A DNA stretch of 64,000 nucleotides. Origin: Nitrosopumilus piranensis. Lineage in GTDB: Archaea > Thermoproteota > Nitrososphaeria > Nitrososphaerales > Nitrosopumilaceae. Positions 6,616-36,375 of the stretch are shown here, in pieces. The stretch's first letter is position 1. Every line of letters begins with the position of its first letter. The position numbers and the translations under genes are program-made. Below the pieces are notes generated by a model. That model did no database searches and was not told where the DNA came from. It saw only the letters and a program-made list of their open reading frames with translations. The DNA lies in assembly GCF_000875775.1 (NCBI RefSeq), contig NZ_CP010868.1:372001-436000 (forward strand), in the 5' to 3' direction.

Positions 6616-7200
6616 TTGTTTACAGGTATTATTGAAGGAATAGGCAAGATCGAAAAAATTTCTAAAAATACAAAAAATAGAAGTGCAATTCAAATGACTG
6701 TGAATTTAGGAAAGCATGCCAAGGGGTTAAAAATTGGTCAAAGTGTTGCATTAAACGGTGTTTGCCTAACGGCAACAAAATTATCAAAATCTAATTGTAT
6801 GTTTGAAATGATTGAAGAGACAACAAAAAAAACTGATCTTGGAAATCTTAAAGTTGGTGGGATTGTAAACATTGAACGCAGCTTAAAATCTGGAGATAGA
6901 TTAGAAGGTCATTTTGTTTTAGGTCATGTTGATGGAGTAGGAGTAGTCAAAAAAATTTCAAAAAAACCTAAAGAAGTTCAAGTTTGGTTTGAAATACCTA
7001 AGAAATTAGCAAAATATGTTGTCAAAAAAGGCTCTATTGCAGTTGATGGAATTAGTTTGACTGTAGTTGATATTAAAAATAATCTTGCATCTGTTTCATT
7101 AATCCCTCATACAATTGAAGTTACAAATTTTCAAACCAAGAAAGTAGGCGACAAAGTTAATATTGAAACTGACATTCTTGGGAAATACATTCTAAAATAA
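6616..7200 (+). CDS. ribE: Riboflavin synthase, bacterial-type (lumazine-binding repeats)
   Basis: Catalyses the dismutation of two 6,7-dimethyl-8-ribityllumazine molecules to riboflavin. The 194 residues contain two lumazine-binding repeats: MFTGIIEGIGKIEKI at the N-terminus with GVCLTATKL near 50, and HFVLGHVDGVGVVKKI near 97 with GISLTVVDI near 148. It starts with TTG at 6616, which gives the invariant MFTGII. Methanogens use an unrelated enzyme, so this bacterial-type gene is notable. It stands just ahead of the ribB-ribH-arfA-arfC cluster with a separate promoter between. Confidence 0.95.
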   Translation: MFTGIIEGIGKIEKISKNTKNRSAIQMTVNLGKHAKGLKIGQSVALNGVCLTATKLSKSNCMFEMIEETTKKTDLGNLKVGGIVNIERSLKSGDRLEGHFVLGHVDGVGVVKKISKKPKEVQVWFEIPKKLAKYVVKKGSIAVDGISLTVVDIKNNLASVSLIPHTIEVTNFQTKKVGDKVNIETDILGKYILK

Positions 7201-7256: not shown

Positions 7257-7278
7257 CAGTTTGAAGATTTTTTTGTTT

Positions 7279-7944
7279 ATGTCTCTTGAATCTGCATTAC
7301 AATCTCTAAAAAGAGGTGAGTTTGTACTTTTGTTTGATTCTGCTGGAAGGGAAAATGAGATTGATATGGTAGTAGCTGCAGAATTTGTAACCTCAGAACA
7401 TGTTGCTAGAATGCGTCAGCATGCTGGTGGATTGCTTTGTATTGCAATAGATAATAATTTTGCAAAATCACTTGAATTAAAATACATGCATGAAATTCTA
7501 TCTGATTCCTCAATACCAAACAAGGAAATGATTATGGGATTAGCTCCTTATGGTGATCACCCCACCTTTTCATTATCTGTAAATCACTATCAGACGTATA
7601 CTGGAATTACTGATAATGACAGATCTTTAACAATACGTGAAATGGCAAATATCTACAATGTTGAAAATAAACAGAAAAAATTTGCATCGTCTTTTAAAAC
7701 TCCAGGACATGTTCCCTTGCTGATCGCATCAAAAGGCTTGTTGGCTGCACGTCAAGGGCATACAGAAATGTCTGTATATCTTGCACAAATTGCTGGTTTG
7801 ACTCCAGTAACTGCAATATGTGAAATGATGGATGCTGAAACATATACTGCATTATCAGTTGATAAAGCAGAAAAATTTGGAAAACAAAATGGAATTCCAT
7901 TAATTGATGGAAAAGAACTATTAGAATACGCTAAGGTGCATTAA
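7279..7944 (+). CDS. ribB: 3,4-dihydroxy-2-butanone-4-phosphate synthase
   Basis: Converts ribulose 5-phosphate to the four-carbon unit used by lumazine synthase. About 221 residues, single-domain, without the GTP cyclohydrolase II partner found fused in many bacteria. The substrate/metal loop SAGRENEIDMVVAAEF is near 22-37, RQHAGGLLCIA near 48, YTGITDNDRSLTI near 100 and the distal GHTEMSVYLAQIAG near 154. Start at 7279 was chosen from the TATA spacing. It heads an operon with ribH two bases downstream. Confidence 0.95.
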   Translation: MSLESALQSLKRGEFVLLFDSAGRENEIDMVVAAEFVTSEHVARMRQHAGGLLCIAIDNNFAKSLELKYMHEILSDSSIPNKEMIMGLAPYGDHPTFSLSVNHYQTYTGITDNDRSLTIREMANIYNVENKQKKFASSFKTPGHVPLLIASKGLLAARQGHTEMSVYLAQIAGLTPVTAICEMMDAETYTALSVDKAEKFGKQNGIPLIDGKELLEYAKVH

Positions 7945-7946
7945 TT

Positions 7947-8363
7947 TTGAATATTGCGATAGTGATCTCGGAATTCAATGACAAAGTGACATCTAGAATG
8001 CTTTTGGTGGCACAAGAAAAAGCAGATTCTTTAAAATTAAAAATAATTCATACCTGTTCTGTACCTGGTGCCTATGACATGCCTATTATTGTTGATGCCC
8101 TTTTGCAGAAAAATGATGTTGATGCTGTAGTCACTTTGGGTGCAATTATCAAGGGACAAACAAAACATGATGAGGTTATCTCTCATGCAGCTGCTCAAGC
8201 ACTTACTGATTTATCTATAAAATACAAAAAACCTGTATCTTTAGGAATTTCTGGTCCTGGAATGCAAGAAAGACATGCACATGCCAGGATAAGACCAGTA
8301 GCTGAACGTGCAGTAGAAGCAGTATTGAAAATCTCCTCAGAACTAAAAAGGATTCAAAAATGA
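7947..8363 (+). CDS. ribH: 6,7-dimethyl-8-ribityllumazine synthase
   Basis: Condenses the RibB product with the ribitylaminopyrimidine to form the riboflavin precursor. The 138-residue length is normal. Motifs: ISEFND (residues 7-12), VPGAYDMPI near 38, and LGAIIKGQTKHDEVISHAAA near 67, which contains the catalytic histidine region. TTG at 7947 is the start. It lies between ribB and arfA and overlaps arfA by four bases, so translation is probably coupled. Confidence 0.94.
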   Translation: MNIAIVISEFNDKVTSRMLLVAQEKADSLKLKIIHTCSVPGAYDMPIIVDALLQKNDVDAVVTLGAIIKGQTKHDEVISHAAAQALTDLSIKYKKPVSLGISGPGMQERHAHARIRPVAERAVEAVLKISSELKRIQK

Positions 8364-9112
8364 TTCAACTAAGTATTTTGAAAATAACTGGTTATGGTCC
8401 ATGGACATTAACTCTGGGTAGTGACAGAGAACATGAACTACAAATGCTTCAGGCTTCTCTATACAAACAAGTACAAAAATTATTTTCTGAAAAAAATTGC
8501 CTTGTTTTTCTTAATAGGTCTGATGAATTTTTTGCTGTTTCAAATGGCCTTGGATTAGAAGATCATATCCAAATTCAAAAAATACTAGAAAAATCCTTTG
8601 ATATACGCCTTACCATTTCAATTGGATTTGCTGAGTCTCCCTTTGATGCAAATTTGAAGGCATATGAGGGAAAGAAAAATGAAATTGTTTTAGATAAACA
8701 ATACAACATTTTTGGTTTTGTAAATGAGACAACTGATTCTACTGTTACTATAATGCATTTGGATGTAGATGATCTTACTTCTAAAAGAACAACAAATTCA
8801 CCATATGAAATTTCATCAATAATTTTTCAACTTTACTCCAAAATGTCAACATATTTTCTACAAAAAAATTCACTTACATTTTTCATGGGTGGTGATAATT
8901 TTATGGTGGTTGCAAGTAATGATGCAAAAAACTCTGTGCAAGATTTTATTAATATGATAAAAAATGACGATAAAATTTCTTTGAATTGTGGAATTGGTAA
9001 TGCAAAAACATGTAGAGATGCTGTAAAATTAGCCACAAAATCATTAGATACAATTCGTGAAATTCGAGATTCAGGGAAAGAAAAACCTGAAGTTTATGAA
9101 TTATCATGTTAA
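8360..9112 (+). CDS. arfA: GTP cyclohydrolase IIa (ArfA, GTP cyclohydrolase III)
   Basis: First committed step of archaeal riboflavin (and F420 chromophore) synthesis: GTP to a formylaminopyrimidine nucleotide. The 250-residue protein begins with the family signature LKITGYGPWTLTLGSDREHELQ, and shows the repeated nucleotidyl-cyclase-like halves, with CLVFLNRSDEFFAVSNGL near 48 and LTFFMGGDNFMVV near 172. It overlaps ribH by four bases and the amidohydrolase gene by seven, in a tight operon. Confidence 0.95.
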   Translation: MIQLSILKITGYGPWTLTLGSDREHELQMLQASLYKQVQKLFSEKNCLVFLNRSDEFFAVSNGLGLEDHIQIQKILEKSFDIRLTISIGFAESPFDANLKAYEGKKNEIVLDKQYNIFGFVNETTDSTVTIMHLDVDDLTSKRTTNSPYEISSIIFQLYSKMSTYFLQKNSLTFFMGGDNFMVVASNDAKNSVQDFINMIKNDDKISLNCGIGNAKTCRDAVKLATKSLDTIREIRDSGKEKPEVYELSC

Positions 9113-10296
9113 TCAAAAACATCAGTACTCTTTTAGGAAAAGAATTAGACTATATTTCTGAAACAAATATTCAAATCCAAAATGGAAAATTTAAACAAAT
9201 TCAACCCAACATTAAACCTAATGTTAAAGAAGAGTTTATTGATTGTCAAGGGCTTTTACTAATTCCTGGATTCATTAATGCACATACTCATATTGGTGAT
9301 TCTATTGGAAAAGATGTTACACTAGATAGTTCAGTAGACAAAAAAATACATCCAGTTTTTGGGGCTAAATCAAAAATTCTAAAAAATACTCCTCCTGAGA
9401 ATCTTACTGATTTTATGAAAAATACTTGTCACTCCATGATTAGAAAAGGAATCACCACTTTTGTTGATTTTAGGGAAGGTGGCTTAGATGGTGTTCTTTT
9501 ATTAAAAAAAACATTATCTGAAATTCCTATACGTTCAATTATTTTGGGGCGAGTAGATTTTTATCAAAACCCAACTGAAATCAAAAAAAATCTACCTATT
9601 TCTAAAGAAAAATCTAAGGAATTACCACTAATCCTTCAGAAATGTGATGGAATTGGAATCAGTGGCGCAAATGAGAATAGTAACTCAGTTCTAAATCACT
9701 ATTCAAAAACATCAAAGATTAGAGCAATTCATTCTTCTGAAACCAAACAAAGTGTTTCTAGATCCAAAAAAATGACTGGAAAATCTGAAACAATTAGGGC
9801 ATTATCCCTCAAGCCTCATTTTCTTGTTCACATGACTCATGCATCAAAAAATGACCTTCATGTTGCAGCAAAAAAAATTAGAGGAATTGTCATTTGTCCA
9901 AGGGCTAATTCTTCGTTGGCTGAAGGAATTCCTGACATTACTTTAATGCAAAATGCTGGTTGTACTCTAGCATTAGGCACAGATAATGTCATGATAAACT
10001 CACCTGATATGTTTAGAGAAATGGATTATATTTGGAAAGTAACAATGGGCATTCATAAAAAAAGAATCAACCCTAAAGATATTCTAAAAATGTCTACCGT
10101 AAATGGTGGAAAAATATTGAAAAAAGATATCGGAATTATTGAAACAGGAAAAATTGCAGATTGTATATTTCTTAACAAACATGCATTAGACTTGGAACCA
10201 ATGCATGATCCATACGCATCAATTGTTCATAGAGCATCTGAATCTACAATAAAAGCAGTAATGATTGGAGGGAAAATTGTACATGGAAAACTCTAG
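9106..10296 (+). CDS. Amidohydrolase-superfamily enzyme within the riboflavin operon
   Basis: A 396-residue metal-dependent hydrolase or deaminase. The entry motif GFINAHTHIGDS (two metal-ligand histidines) is near 57-68, a further histidine in RAIHSSET near 204, VHMTHAS near 241, and the catalytic/metal aspartate in LALGTDNVMINSPD near 290. It is embedded between arfA and arfC with overlaps on both sides. The pathway step between those two enzymes is a deformylation, and a later step is a deamination, both chemistries known in this superfamily. A role in riboflavin synthesis is therefore an inference from position; other purine/pyrimidine deaminase roles are possible. Confidence 0.85.
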   Translation: MLIKNISTLLGKELDYISETNIQIQNGKFKQIQPNIKPNVKEEFIDCQGLLLIPGFINAHTHIGDSIGKDVTLDSSVDKKIHPVFGAKSKILKNTPPENLTDFMKNTCHSMIRKGITTFVDFREGGLDGVLLLKKTLSEIPIRSIILGRVDFYQNPTEIKKNLPISKEKSKELPLILQKCDGIGISGANENSNSVLNHYSKTSKIRAIHSSETKQSVSRSKKMTGKSETIRALSLKPHFLVHMTHASKNDLHVAAKKIRGIVICPRANSSLAEGIPDITLMQNAGCTLALGTDNVMINSPDMFREMDYIWKVTMGIHKKRINPKDILKMSTVNGGKILKKDIGIIETGKIADCIFLNKHALDLEPMHDPYASIVHRASESTIKAVMIGGKIVHGKL

Positions 10297-10939
10297 ACCT
10301 CGCATAATTCTTAGTACAGCAATATCCATTGATGGAAAGATTGCAACTAAAACAAATGATTCAAAACTTTCATCAAAAGAAGATATTAAAAGACTACATA
10401 AATTACGTTCTAAAGTAGACGCAATTCTTGTTGGAAAAAATACTGTCTCTCGTGATGATCCAATTTTAACTGTTCGATATGCTAAAGGAAAAAATCCAAT
10501 TAGAATTATTTTAGATTCTCAAGGAACTATTTCAAAAAAATCAAAAATTTTACAATCATGTGATAAAATTCCAACTATAATTGCAGTATCAAAAAAAATT
10601 CCACAAAAAAATCTTGAAAAGTTACAGAAATTTCCTATTGAGATAATTATTACTGGAAAAGATTATGTTAATCTAAAATTATTATTAAAAAAACTATCAA
10701 AAAAGAAAATCAAAACAATACTAGTTGAAGGTGGGGGAACTGTAAATTGGGAATTTGTTAAACACAAACTTTTTGATGAAATGATAGTGACTCTATCTCC
10801 ATTCTTAGTTGGCGGTGAAGATGCTATTTCCTATGTAGGTGGTTCAGGATTTAGTAAAATTTCCAATTCCCCAAATCTTAGACTTAAATCTGTAAAGAGG
10901 CTCAAAAATCATCTAGTTTTACATTACGAAAAGCTCTAA
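10283..10939 (+). CDS. arfC: 2,5-diamino-6-ribosylaminopyrimidinone 5'-phosphate reductase (ArfC, RibD C-terminal type)
   Basis: Reduces the ribosyl group to ribityl in the archaeal riboflavin pathway, using NAD(P)H. The protein is DHFR-like: ILSTAISIDGKIAT at the start, LRSKVDAILVGKNTVSRDDP near 47-66, and the nucleotide-binding TILVEGGGTVNWEFV near 149. No deaminase domain is fused to it, so the deaminase must be a separate protein. An in-frame ATG at 10265 exists, but 10283 gives the usual N-terminus and a shorter (14-base) overlap with the amidohydrolase gene. Confidence 0.93.
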   Translation: MENSRPRIILSTAISIDGKIATKTNDSKLSSKEDIKRLHKLRSKVDAILVGKNTVSRDDPILTVRYAKGKNPIRIILDSQGTISKKSKILQSCDKIPTIIAVSKKIPQKNLEKLQKFPIEIIITGKDYVNLKLLLKKLSKKKIKTILVEGGGTVNWEFVKHKLFDEMIVTLSPFLVGGEDAISYVGGSGFSKISNSPNLRLKSVKRLKNHLVLHYEKL

Positions 10940-10950: not shown

Positions 10951-10975
10951 TTATTTGAAATACAACTACAAGAAA

Positions 10976-11212
10976 TTGGCGGTAAAAAAGAAAACAACCA
11001 AAAGAAAAACTACCACAAAAAAGAAGGCAGCACCAAAAAAGAAATCTACTAAATCAAAAGCAAAGAAACCAGCATTTGGCGGATATGCTATTAGTTTTGC
11101 AGGTCGCAAAGAAACTGCTGAACAAATATTTGGTAAAAAACCAATTGCCCCTAGTGAAATGACCAAAAAGATTTGGGCATTTGTAAAATCAAAAAGCCTT
11201 TCTAATCGTTAA
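10976..11212 (+). CDS. Lysine-rich protein with a SWIB-like C-terminal segment
   Basis: About 78 residues. The first 35 form a histone-H1-like basic tail of lysine, threonine, alanine and proline. The rest includes EQIFGKKPIAPSEMTKKIWA, which resembles the first helices of SWIB/MDM2-type domains (core pattern GKK, a turn, then a VVKKIW-like helix), but the domain's second half is absent. Likely DNA- or chromatin-associated; this is inference from composition and weak similarity. It follows the riboflavin operon but has its own TATA-like box. Confidence 0.75.
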   Translation: MAVKKKTTKRKTTTKKKAAPKKKSTKSKAKKPAFGGYAISFAGRKETAEQIFGKKPIAPSEMTKKIWAFVKSKSLSNR

Positions 11213-34611: not shown

Positions 34612-36375
34612 GTGACTTCGAGCCTAGCAAATTCGATCTCTTCCTTGAATTCAGTAGCTATGGGTGAAAAAAAAGCAGATCTAATTTTGAAAAATTGTAA
34701 TTTACTTTCTGTTTATACTCGTGAAATCATTCCAAAAACTCAGATTGCAATAATTGGTGATAGAATTGCATATGTTGGTCCAGATGCAACACATGCACAA
34801 GGTCCTAAAACCAAAATTGTTGATGTAAAAAACAATTATGTTGGTCCTGGTTTTGCAGATCCTCATTTACATATTGATCAATTTGTTCTTCCTTCAGAAT
34901 TTGCAAAACAAGCACTTCTTTGCGGCGTAACTTCTCTTTTCTCTGATCCTATTGATGTTGTTAGTGTAGGTGGGTACAAGGGATTTCAAGAATTTTTAAA
35001 ATTAGGAGAAGATCTTCCAGTAAGAATTTTTCAAGTTGTACCTGGTGGACTACCTGTTGATGCAAAATTTAGTAACAGTAAAACTCTTACTTTGTATCAA
35101 GAAAAATCTGCAGTAAAACATCCTCATGTTCTTGGATTGGGTGAGGTTTTCTCTTGGACAAAGGTTACTCTTCGTGAACCAAAAACAATGAAATCTCTTT
35201 CAACAATGCTAGAATGTGATTGCATTATCAATGGACACACTGCTGGCGCAAGTGAAAAAAAATTGAATGCCTATGTTTCTTCTGGAATTCTTTCTTGTCA
35301 TGAACCAATCAATTTTGATCAAGTATTGGAGAGATTACGTCTTGGAATGTGGATTATGATTAGAGAAGGCTCTATAAGACGTGATTTGAAAGAAATTATT
35401 CCAAGAGTTTTGTCTCATGGCACATATCTCAACCGATTAATGTTTTGCTCAGATGGTCTTGATCCAAAGGATATCTCAAAATTTGGTCATATTGATCATT
35501 GTATTCGTGAATCAATCAAACTTGGCTTAGAGCCAATTGATGCAGTAACTATGGCATCAAAAAATAATTTTGATTACTATAACATGGGAAAAGATCTTGG
35601 TGGAATTGCACCTGGTAAATTAGCTGATATTCTAATTTTTAATGATTTGAAATCATTTAAACCTAAAACTGTGTTTGTAGGAGGAAAACTTGCAGTATCT
35701 AATGGAAAAATTGTTTTTCCAATAAAGAAAAAAACAATATCTCCTTGGATCAAAAATACTGTCAAACTACAAAAATTCTCAAAAGATGATTTTCAAGTAA
35801 AGTCTAAAAAGAAAGATGTTGTGGCAAATACTATTTTTATGCAAACAGAAATAATTACAAAGATAGGTTCAGCTCAACTTCAGTCAAAAAATGATCTTGT
35901 TTCTGCATCTTTGGATTCAGATGTATGGAAAGTTGCTGCTTTTGATAGAACCCATGGAACGAATAGGCATGCTATAGGATTTCTTGAAAATTTTGGTGCA
36001 GATATTGGGGCATTTGCTTCTACGTGGAGTTTTCATGAAAACGATATGATAGTTATTGGTTCAAATGACTCTGATATGGCGTTTGCATCAAATCACTTAA
36101 TCAAAAATCAGGGTGGACTTGTTGTAGTAAAATCTGGCGAAGTTCTTGCTTCTTTACCTCTACAGTTTGCAGGGATCGTTTCAACAGATTCATTTGACAA
36201 AGTATCATCTAATTTTGAAAAAATCAATAACTCAATTGTTGATTCTGGATGTAAATTTTCCAGACCTCATCTAATTCCTTTGTTTTTGCCTTTTTTGGCT
36301 TTACCTTCTGTTAGAATCCTTTCAGGTGGTATTGTTGATGTAAAAAAACGGAGTTACATCTCACCGATCAACTAA
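34612..36375 (+). CDS. ade: Adenine deaminase-like amidohydrolase
   Basis: A 587-residue enzyme with the two-part layout of adenine deaminase (metal-dependent TIM-barrel plus C-terminal ADD domain). The first metal motif appears as GFADPHLHIDQF near 75-86, GLGEVFSW near 170, CSDGLDPKDIS near 282 and GKLADILIFNDLKSFKPK near 333. In familiar members the segment after the first motif reads ADPHEIANV; here it is SDPIDVVSV, with loss of that histidine, so substrate or metal use may differ. GTG at 34612 is chosen because a TATA-like CTATAATAGG lies 27 bases ahead. Confidence 0.85.
   Translation: MTSSLANSISSLNSVAMGEKKADLILKNCNLLSVYTREIIPKTQIAIIGDRIAYVGPDATHAQGPKTKIVDVKNNYVGPGFADPHLHIDQFVLPSEFAKQALLCGVTSLFSDPIDVVSVGGYKGFQEFLKLGEDLPVRIFQVVPGGLPVDAKFSNSKTLTLYQEKSAVKHPHVLGLGEVFSWTKVTLREPKTMKSLSTMLECDCIINGHTAGASEKKLNAYVSSGILSCHEPINFDQVLERLRLGMWIMIREGSIRRDLKEIIPRVLSHGTYLNRLMFCSDGLDPKDISKFGHIDHCIRESIKLGLEPIDAVTMASKNNFDYYNMGKDLGGIAPGKLADILIFNDLKSFKPKTVFVGGKLAVSNGKIVFPIKKKTISPWIKNTVKLQKFSKDDFQVKSKKKDVVANTIFMQTEIITKIGSAQLQSKNDLVSASLDSDVWKVAAFDRTHGTNRHAIGFLENFGADIGAFASTWSFHENDMIVIGSNDSDMAFASNHLIKNQGGLVVVKSGEVLASLPLQFAGIVSTDSFDKVSSNFEKINNSIVDSGCKFSRPHLIPLFLPFLALPSVRILSGGIVDVKKRSYISPIN

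Follow-up and report, generated by a model that had tools for sequence, protein, structure and literature searches.

A riboflavin operon containing an amidohydrolase gene

The window analysed here, a 64,000-nt stretch of the Nitrosopumilus piranensis genome (G000; 1.71 Mb on one contig, 99.9% complete), carries a riboflavin operon in the order ribE-ribB-ribH-arfA-AHY-arfC, with every gene on the + strand. We use AHY for the amidohydrolase encoded between arfA and arfC. The operon consists of the following genes:

6616..7200, + strand: ribE, bacterial-type riboflavin synthase (Lum_binding; Pfam and NCBIfam)
7261..7944, + strand: ribB, DHBP synthase (NCBIfam)
7947..8363, + strand: ribH, lumazine synthase (NCBIfam)
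8360..9112, + strand: arfA, GTP cyclohydrolase III/IIa (GCH_III; PF05165, 4.4e-51)
9106..10296, + strand: AHY, 396-aa amidohydrolase-superfamily protein (ATZ/TRZ-type), proposed 2,5-diamino-6-ribitylamino-4(3H)-pyrimidinone 5'-phosphate deaminase
10284..10939, + strand: arfC, stand-alone RibD_C reductase without a deaminase domain (PF01872, 3.6e-52; TIGR01508 over cut-off)

The AHY open reading frame spans exactly 9106-10296 (+) from an ATG start and overlaps arfA by 7 nt and arfC by 13 nt, the latter gene likely starting at the ATG at 10284 within a longest frame that opens at 10265. These overlaps bear out the arrangement described in a sequence-only reading of this DNA, as does the absence from the operon of a creatininase-like ArfB: no creatininase gene was found among the operon's open reading frames.

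Three further observations concern the surrounding sequence. The riboflavin synthase at 6616-7200 is the bacterial-type ribE, and that of the comparable Bathyarchaeota operon described below is the archaeal type (TIGR01506 ribC_arch). Directly after arfC lies an 85-aa Lys-rich open reading frame (10955-11212) with no Pfam match. A second amidohydrolase in the window, a separate gene at 34840-35691 within a 590-aa open frame, is adenine deaminase-like by sequence.

AHY and its relatives form one archaeal clade

The Pfam matches of AHY are Amidohydro_1 (1.4e-38) and Amidohydro_3 only, with no match to the creatininase family (PF02633), and the cytidine-deaminase zinc-binding domain (PF00383) was not found by Pfam in either AHY or ArfC. 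The bacterial RibD N-terminal domain and the fungal Rib2 deaminase, which act at the pathway step equivalent to the one proposed here for AHY, have the cytidine-deaminase fold (PF00383), which is unrelated to that of AHY. The best NCBIfam model for AHY is the equivalog NF005552/PRK07213 (328.3 bits against a curated cut-off of 294); this model describes AHY's own family, and its name, 'chlorohydrolase', conveys no function. AHY fell under the cut-offs of the SAH/MTA/5'-deoxyadenosine deaminase (MtaD/DadD) models, scoring 105 bits against PRK07228 (cut-off 522) and 58.7 bits against PRK15493 (cut-off 779).

Crenarchaeal AHY members with the same gene context score 120-212 bits, under the NF005552 cut-off, and at loose thresholds this model also pulls in SAH-type paralogues. 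A profile built from alignment A4 separates the family from its paralogues, with 88 of the 89 members taken from its score table at 219-447 bits and paralogues at 178 bits or less; the remaining member, a divergent 396-aa protein of genome G074 (170 bits), was counted as AHY because the tree places it inside the family. In that maximum-likelihood tree, built from 51 family members together with 20 SAH/MTA-type paralogues from archaea and bacteria, the AHY family forms one side of a branch with 100/100 support. AHY and its relatives thus make up one archaeal clade among the ATZ/TRZ-type deaminases, distinct from the SAH/MTA deaminases, and several SAH-type paralogues share a genome with AHY. 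One AHY-family protein (L075, 227-1489), with Arg at the position of K88 and His at that of N268, lies on a contig binned as Gemmatimonadetes, reflecting either transfer or an archaeal contig inside a bacterial bin.

The predicted active site is of the deaminase type

The AlphaFold2 model of AHY (pLDDT 95.3) is a TIM barrel with a composite beta-sandwich that matches ATZ/TRZ-type structures over its full length. Its best solved match is 4F0S (Z 43.6, rmsd 2.2, 374 aligned), followed closely by TM0936 (1P1M; Z 43.4), and the ranked matches place adenosine/MTA/SAH deaminases best and guanine and isocytosine deaminases next. The HxH, HxxE, His and Asp of ATZ/TRZ-type catalytic sites are all kept, and the set H60, H62, H209, E212, H242 and D293 is invariant in the 51 family members. 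Codons of the catalytic residues and of several family-specific ones lie at these positions:

9283..9291, + strand: codons of H60-x-H62, the metal-binding HxH motif; no variation among 51 family members and 20 paralogues
9298..9300, + strand: codon of D65; invariant in the AHY family, always Met in SAH/MTA-type paralogues
9361..9363, + strand: codon of G86; Glu in 20/20 paralogues (equivalent to TM0936 Glu84)
9475..9477, + strand: codon of E124; AHY family-specific, mostly Phe in paralogues
9730..9741, + strand: codons of H209-x-x-E212, a metal-binding His and the Glu that shuttles protons in this deaminase group; invariant
9829..9831, + strand: codon of H242, catalytic His; invariant
9901..9903, + strand: codon of R266, family-specific Arg (94%)
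9982..9987, + strand: codons of D293 (metal/catalytic Asp) and N294 (family-specific); invariant

Although the fold (Z 43-44) and the full catalytic set are those of the SAH/MTA deaminases TM0936 (1P1M), 4F0S and 4GBD, AHY differs from TM0936 in having Gly86 for Glu84 and Asp65 for Met60, and from TM0936 and its relatives in its new Glu124, Arg266, Asn294 and Arg376, as well as in forming a separate clade. The family-specific positions are accordingly D65, G86, E124, R266, N294 and R376. At position 86, counted on the alignment, the family has mostly Gly, with Ser in family f21; the Glu found there in SAH/MTA deaminases is absent from AHY. Glu84 of TM0936 presumably contacts ribose, and if so, its loss would fit a substrate whose ribityl chain is open. 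The added family-specific Arg residues could bind phosphate, R266 being one possible ligand. Guanine deaminase and the isocytosine deaminase Vcz (2I9U, 7WW2, 8IS4) share the AHY fold at about 17-20% identity, and they carry out the same chemistry as that proposed for AHY, the removal of the 2-amino group from a 2-amino-4-pyrimidinone, but on free bases, whereas AHY would presumably act on a ribityl phosphate. Fold and catalytic residues do not by themselves fix the substrate.

AHY co-occurs with ArfC

Among 251 Thermoproteota genomes, in which AHY was called by the A4 family profile and ArfC by PF01872 at 100 bits or more, 87 had both proteins, 2 had AHY only, 13 had ArfC only and 149 had neither (Fisher p about 2e-50, on counts that ignore phylogenetic relatedness). 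ArfC was therefore present in 87 of the 89 AHY-bearing genomes of this sample, and one of the two exceptions is 76% complete. The same held for each of the 20 named archaeal genomes drawn from the AHY loci, among them Methanosarcina, Methanoculleus, Methanoperedens, Lokiarchaeota and Altiarchaeales. At E <1e-45, NF005552 matched proteins in all four archaeal controls (M. jannaschii, Hfx. volcanii, S. acidocaldarius, M. acetivorans) but none in ten bacterial controls.

Several archaea that need the deamination step have AHY and no protein of the cytidine-deaminase fold: PF00383 was not found in M. jannaschii or S. acidocaldarius, nor in the complete genomes G067, G081, G173 and G095, all of which have ArfC and AHY. 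The N. piranensis genome has one PF00383 protein, a ComEB/dCMP-deaminase-like sequence below cut-off and unlinked to rib genes, which could in principle act at the riboflavin deaminase step. The 13 sampled genomes with ArfC and no AHY (G050, G093, G159, G052, G131, G232, G080, G094, G130, G148, G115, G160 and G218) imply that at least one other solution exists in some lineages. In four of them (G232, G115, G160 and G218) PF00383 was likewise not found, and these may have a further deaminase type, or may take up riboflavin and retain remnant genes.

AHY is linked to riboflavin and F420 genes across archaea

At loci reaching far enough, the arfA-AHY-arfC arrangement persists throughout Nitrososphaeria, even where identity falls to about 40%, which argues that it is not due to chance. 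A Bathyarchaeota JdFR-04 contig (L067) encodes ribC-ribH-arfA-AHY-arfC-creatininase. The gene follows ribB...ribH-arfA in family f21 (L033, L038, L040-L043, L045-L047) and arfA in family f34 (L044), adjoins arfC in families f35, f30, f37 and f17, and in family f18 ends the run arfC-arfA-ribB-ribH-AHY beside a convergent creatininase gene (L057, L050, L054). On an Altiarchaeales contig (L119) AHY abuts ribB, and in Methanothrix and Methanosarcinaceae it adjoins arfC or lies 1.5 kb away.

Unexpectedly, linkage extends to the F420 genes cofG and cofH. The order AHY-arfC-cofG-cofH occurs in a Lokiarchaeote (L102; CofG and CofH assigned by equivalog models) and in genomes G109 (L051) and G019 (L052), and a second Lokiarchaeote (L105) has AHY with arfC-cofG-cofH and one 509-aa open reading frame between. 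Genome G182 (L032) carries AHY-arfC-creatininase-cofG-cofH, AHY is convergent with cofH-cofG in G121 and G127, and G234 (L053) has a run of cofH, AHY and a HAD phosphatase gene; the cof genes of G109, G019, G182, G121 and G127 were assigned by phmmer matches to CofH and CofG proteins. The substrate of CofH is 5-amino-6-(D-ribitylamino)uracil, and the clustering of AHY with cofG and cofH thus points to a role in the trunk common to flavin and F420 synthesis.

Other neighbours were also noted. The G234 HAD-family hydrolase gene (L053, 9768-10376, - strand; 203 aa) overlaps the AHY gene, and its product is a candidate for the pathway phosphatase (EC 3.1.3.104). A universal stress protein gene follows AHY in Methanosarcina, Methanoperedens and a further euryarchaeote (L096, 8031-9462; L103, 3857-4324; L121, 5595-6914), as does a gene for a four-CBS-domain protein in Methanosarcina and the further euryarchaeote; we know of no link between either neighbour and flavins.

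AHY as the probable deaminase common to riboflavin and F420 synthesis

After ArfA, ArfB and ArfC, two steps are left in the common flavin/F420 trunk, deamination and dephosphorylation. The gene runs of L067 and G182 hold all other enzymes up to ribitylaminouracil, leaving the deaminase or the phosphatase for AHY. From its operon position, co-occurrence, clade, predicted fold and conserved catalytic residues, we infer that AHY is the deaminase that archaea use for both riboflavin and F420 (FO) synthesis, acting on the ArfC product, a reading to which we give a probability of about 0.88.

AHY would then be a TIM-barrel hydrolase with a single metal, a member of the ATZ/TRZ (guanine/SAH deaminase) group, and would hydrolytically remove the 2-amino group from 2,5-diamino-6-ribitylamino-4(3H)-pyrimidinone 5'-phosphate, yielding 5-amino-6-ribitylaminouracil 5'-phosphate and ammonia, with family-specific Arg and Lys residues contacting the phosphate; a phosphatase would next produce the substrate of RibH and CofH. 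A metal and proton-shuttle mechanism is established for relatives in this deaminase group. By analogy, water would be activated by a single metal on the HxH, H209 and D293 ligands, E212, H242 and D293 would shuttle protons, and the activated water would attack C2 of the pyrimidinone, from which ammonia departs.

The sequence-only reading had given the operon amidohydrolase two possible roles, supplying the deaminase or replacing ArfB. The first has strong support from the active site and fold, both of the deaminase type, from the co-occurrence with ArfC and linkage to riboflavin and F420 genes, and from the genomes that need the step and have no cytidine-deaminase-fold protein, whereas the second did not stand, as set out below.

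Alternative functions of AHY

AHY might instead deaminate before ArfC, on 2,5-diamino-6-ribosylaminopyrimidinone 5'-phosphate, as in bacteria, which we regard as improbable. The gene order arfA-AHY-arfC would suit this sequence of steps, but the loss of the Glu84 equivalent (G86) suits an open-chain ribityl substrate, provided that this Glu holds ribose, as we presume. Bacterial RibD deaminates first (PMC13028884), but archaeal ArfC uses the diamino compound, so that reduction comes first (PMC13028884 and PMC3403918, citing Graupner 2002). It is this published work on ArfC that places AHY after ArfC in our proposal.

Replacement of ArfB, with AHY deformylating the ArfA product 2-amino-5-formylamino-6-ribosylaminopyrimidinone 5'-phosphate, is very unlikely. 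The amidohydrolase superfamily is capable of amide hydrolysis and the operon in the window is without a creatininase gene, but a whole-genome search for a creatininase-type ArfB found one creatininase-family protein, encoded at C1:511015-511653 (178 bits to PF02633). This ArfB candidate, present in single copy, recurs throughout the order, where its orthologues form a supported clade, and it likely acts as ArfB. Its score against the classical ArfB model NF033501 is weak (39.8 bits; cut-off 180), which would favour replacement, and the creatininase tree has long branches and low support between it and the rib-linked creatininases. Against replacement, all 24 AHY-bearing genomes tested have at least one creatininase-family protein, and, decisively, AHY and a creatininase gene share one gene run in L067 and in G182 (L032), where AHY is encoded besides ArfC and a creatininase-type ArfB, and in L067 besides ArfA as well. 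Creatininase-type proteins perform the deformylation in archaea (ArfB) and in S. meliloti (BrbF; PMC9478397), and the deaminase would remain missing. We therefore rejected AHY as an ArfB substitute.

It is just as unlikely that AHY is a SAH/MTA/5'-deoxyadenosine salvage deaminase that lies in the operon by happenstance. Adenosine and SAH deaminases are its closest structures, but the 100/100 separation from archaeal and bacterial SAH-type paralogues, the family-specific residues (five counted) and the recurrent clustering with rib and cof genes led us to reject this role, and the coexistence of several SAH-type paralogues with AHY in one genome also speaks against it. Least probable of all, and likewise rejected, is that AHY is the pathway phosphatase (EC 3.1.3.104), a step that also has no assigned gene in the riboflavin account of the Haloferax re-annotation (PMC8305020), but the active-site set is of the aminohydrolase type, AHY overlaps a HAD-family phosphatase gene in G234, and genomes without PF00383 would be left with no deaminase candidate.

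Relation to earlier predictions and significance

AHY and its relatives would constitute a branch, specific for one substrate, of an already known group of deaminases, and their role has probably been predicted before. In its account of riboflavin synthesis, including Table 6, the 2021 Haloferax re-annotation (PMC8305020) gives three remaining gaps, with candidates for two from Rodionova et al. 2017: HVO_1235 for arfB, and HVO_2483, 34% identical to MJ0699; EC 3.1.3.104 was, by that account, still without a gene in Haloferax. With arfB taken by HVO_1235 and EC 3.1.3.104 open, HVO_2483/MJ0699 would, by elimination, be the proposed deaminase. These proteins are probably of the same family as AHY: M. 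jannaschii and Hfx. volcanii each have an NF005552-type protein (E <1e-45), a match seen per organism rather than per locus. A 2026 review draws the archaeal riboflavin/F420 deamination without a named archaeal enzyme (PMC13028884), NCBIfam as of June 2026 names the AHY family 'chlorohydrolase' and gives it no riboflavin function, and the literature searched reports no activity assay of the family. The present analysis adds the clustering with F420 genes, the test of the clade and the evidence from Asgard archaea and Nitrososphaeria.

We consider it likely, if less so than the assignment of AHY itself, that an amidohydrolase-fold deaminase unrelated to RibD serves flavins and F420 in most archaea, including Asgard, probably from early on, and that in some lineages a HAD protein encoded next to it would supply the missing phosphatase. 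If true, this would assign a missing enzyme in two essential coenzyme pathways throughout Archaea, correct the annotation of the 'chlorohydrolase' family NF005552 and show RibD/Rib2 replaced by a non-homologous enzyme, and the HAD neighbour would offer a lead for the phosphatase, the last step without an assigned enzyme.
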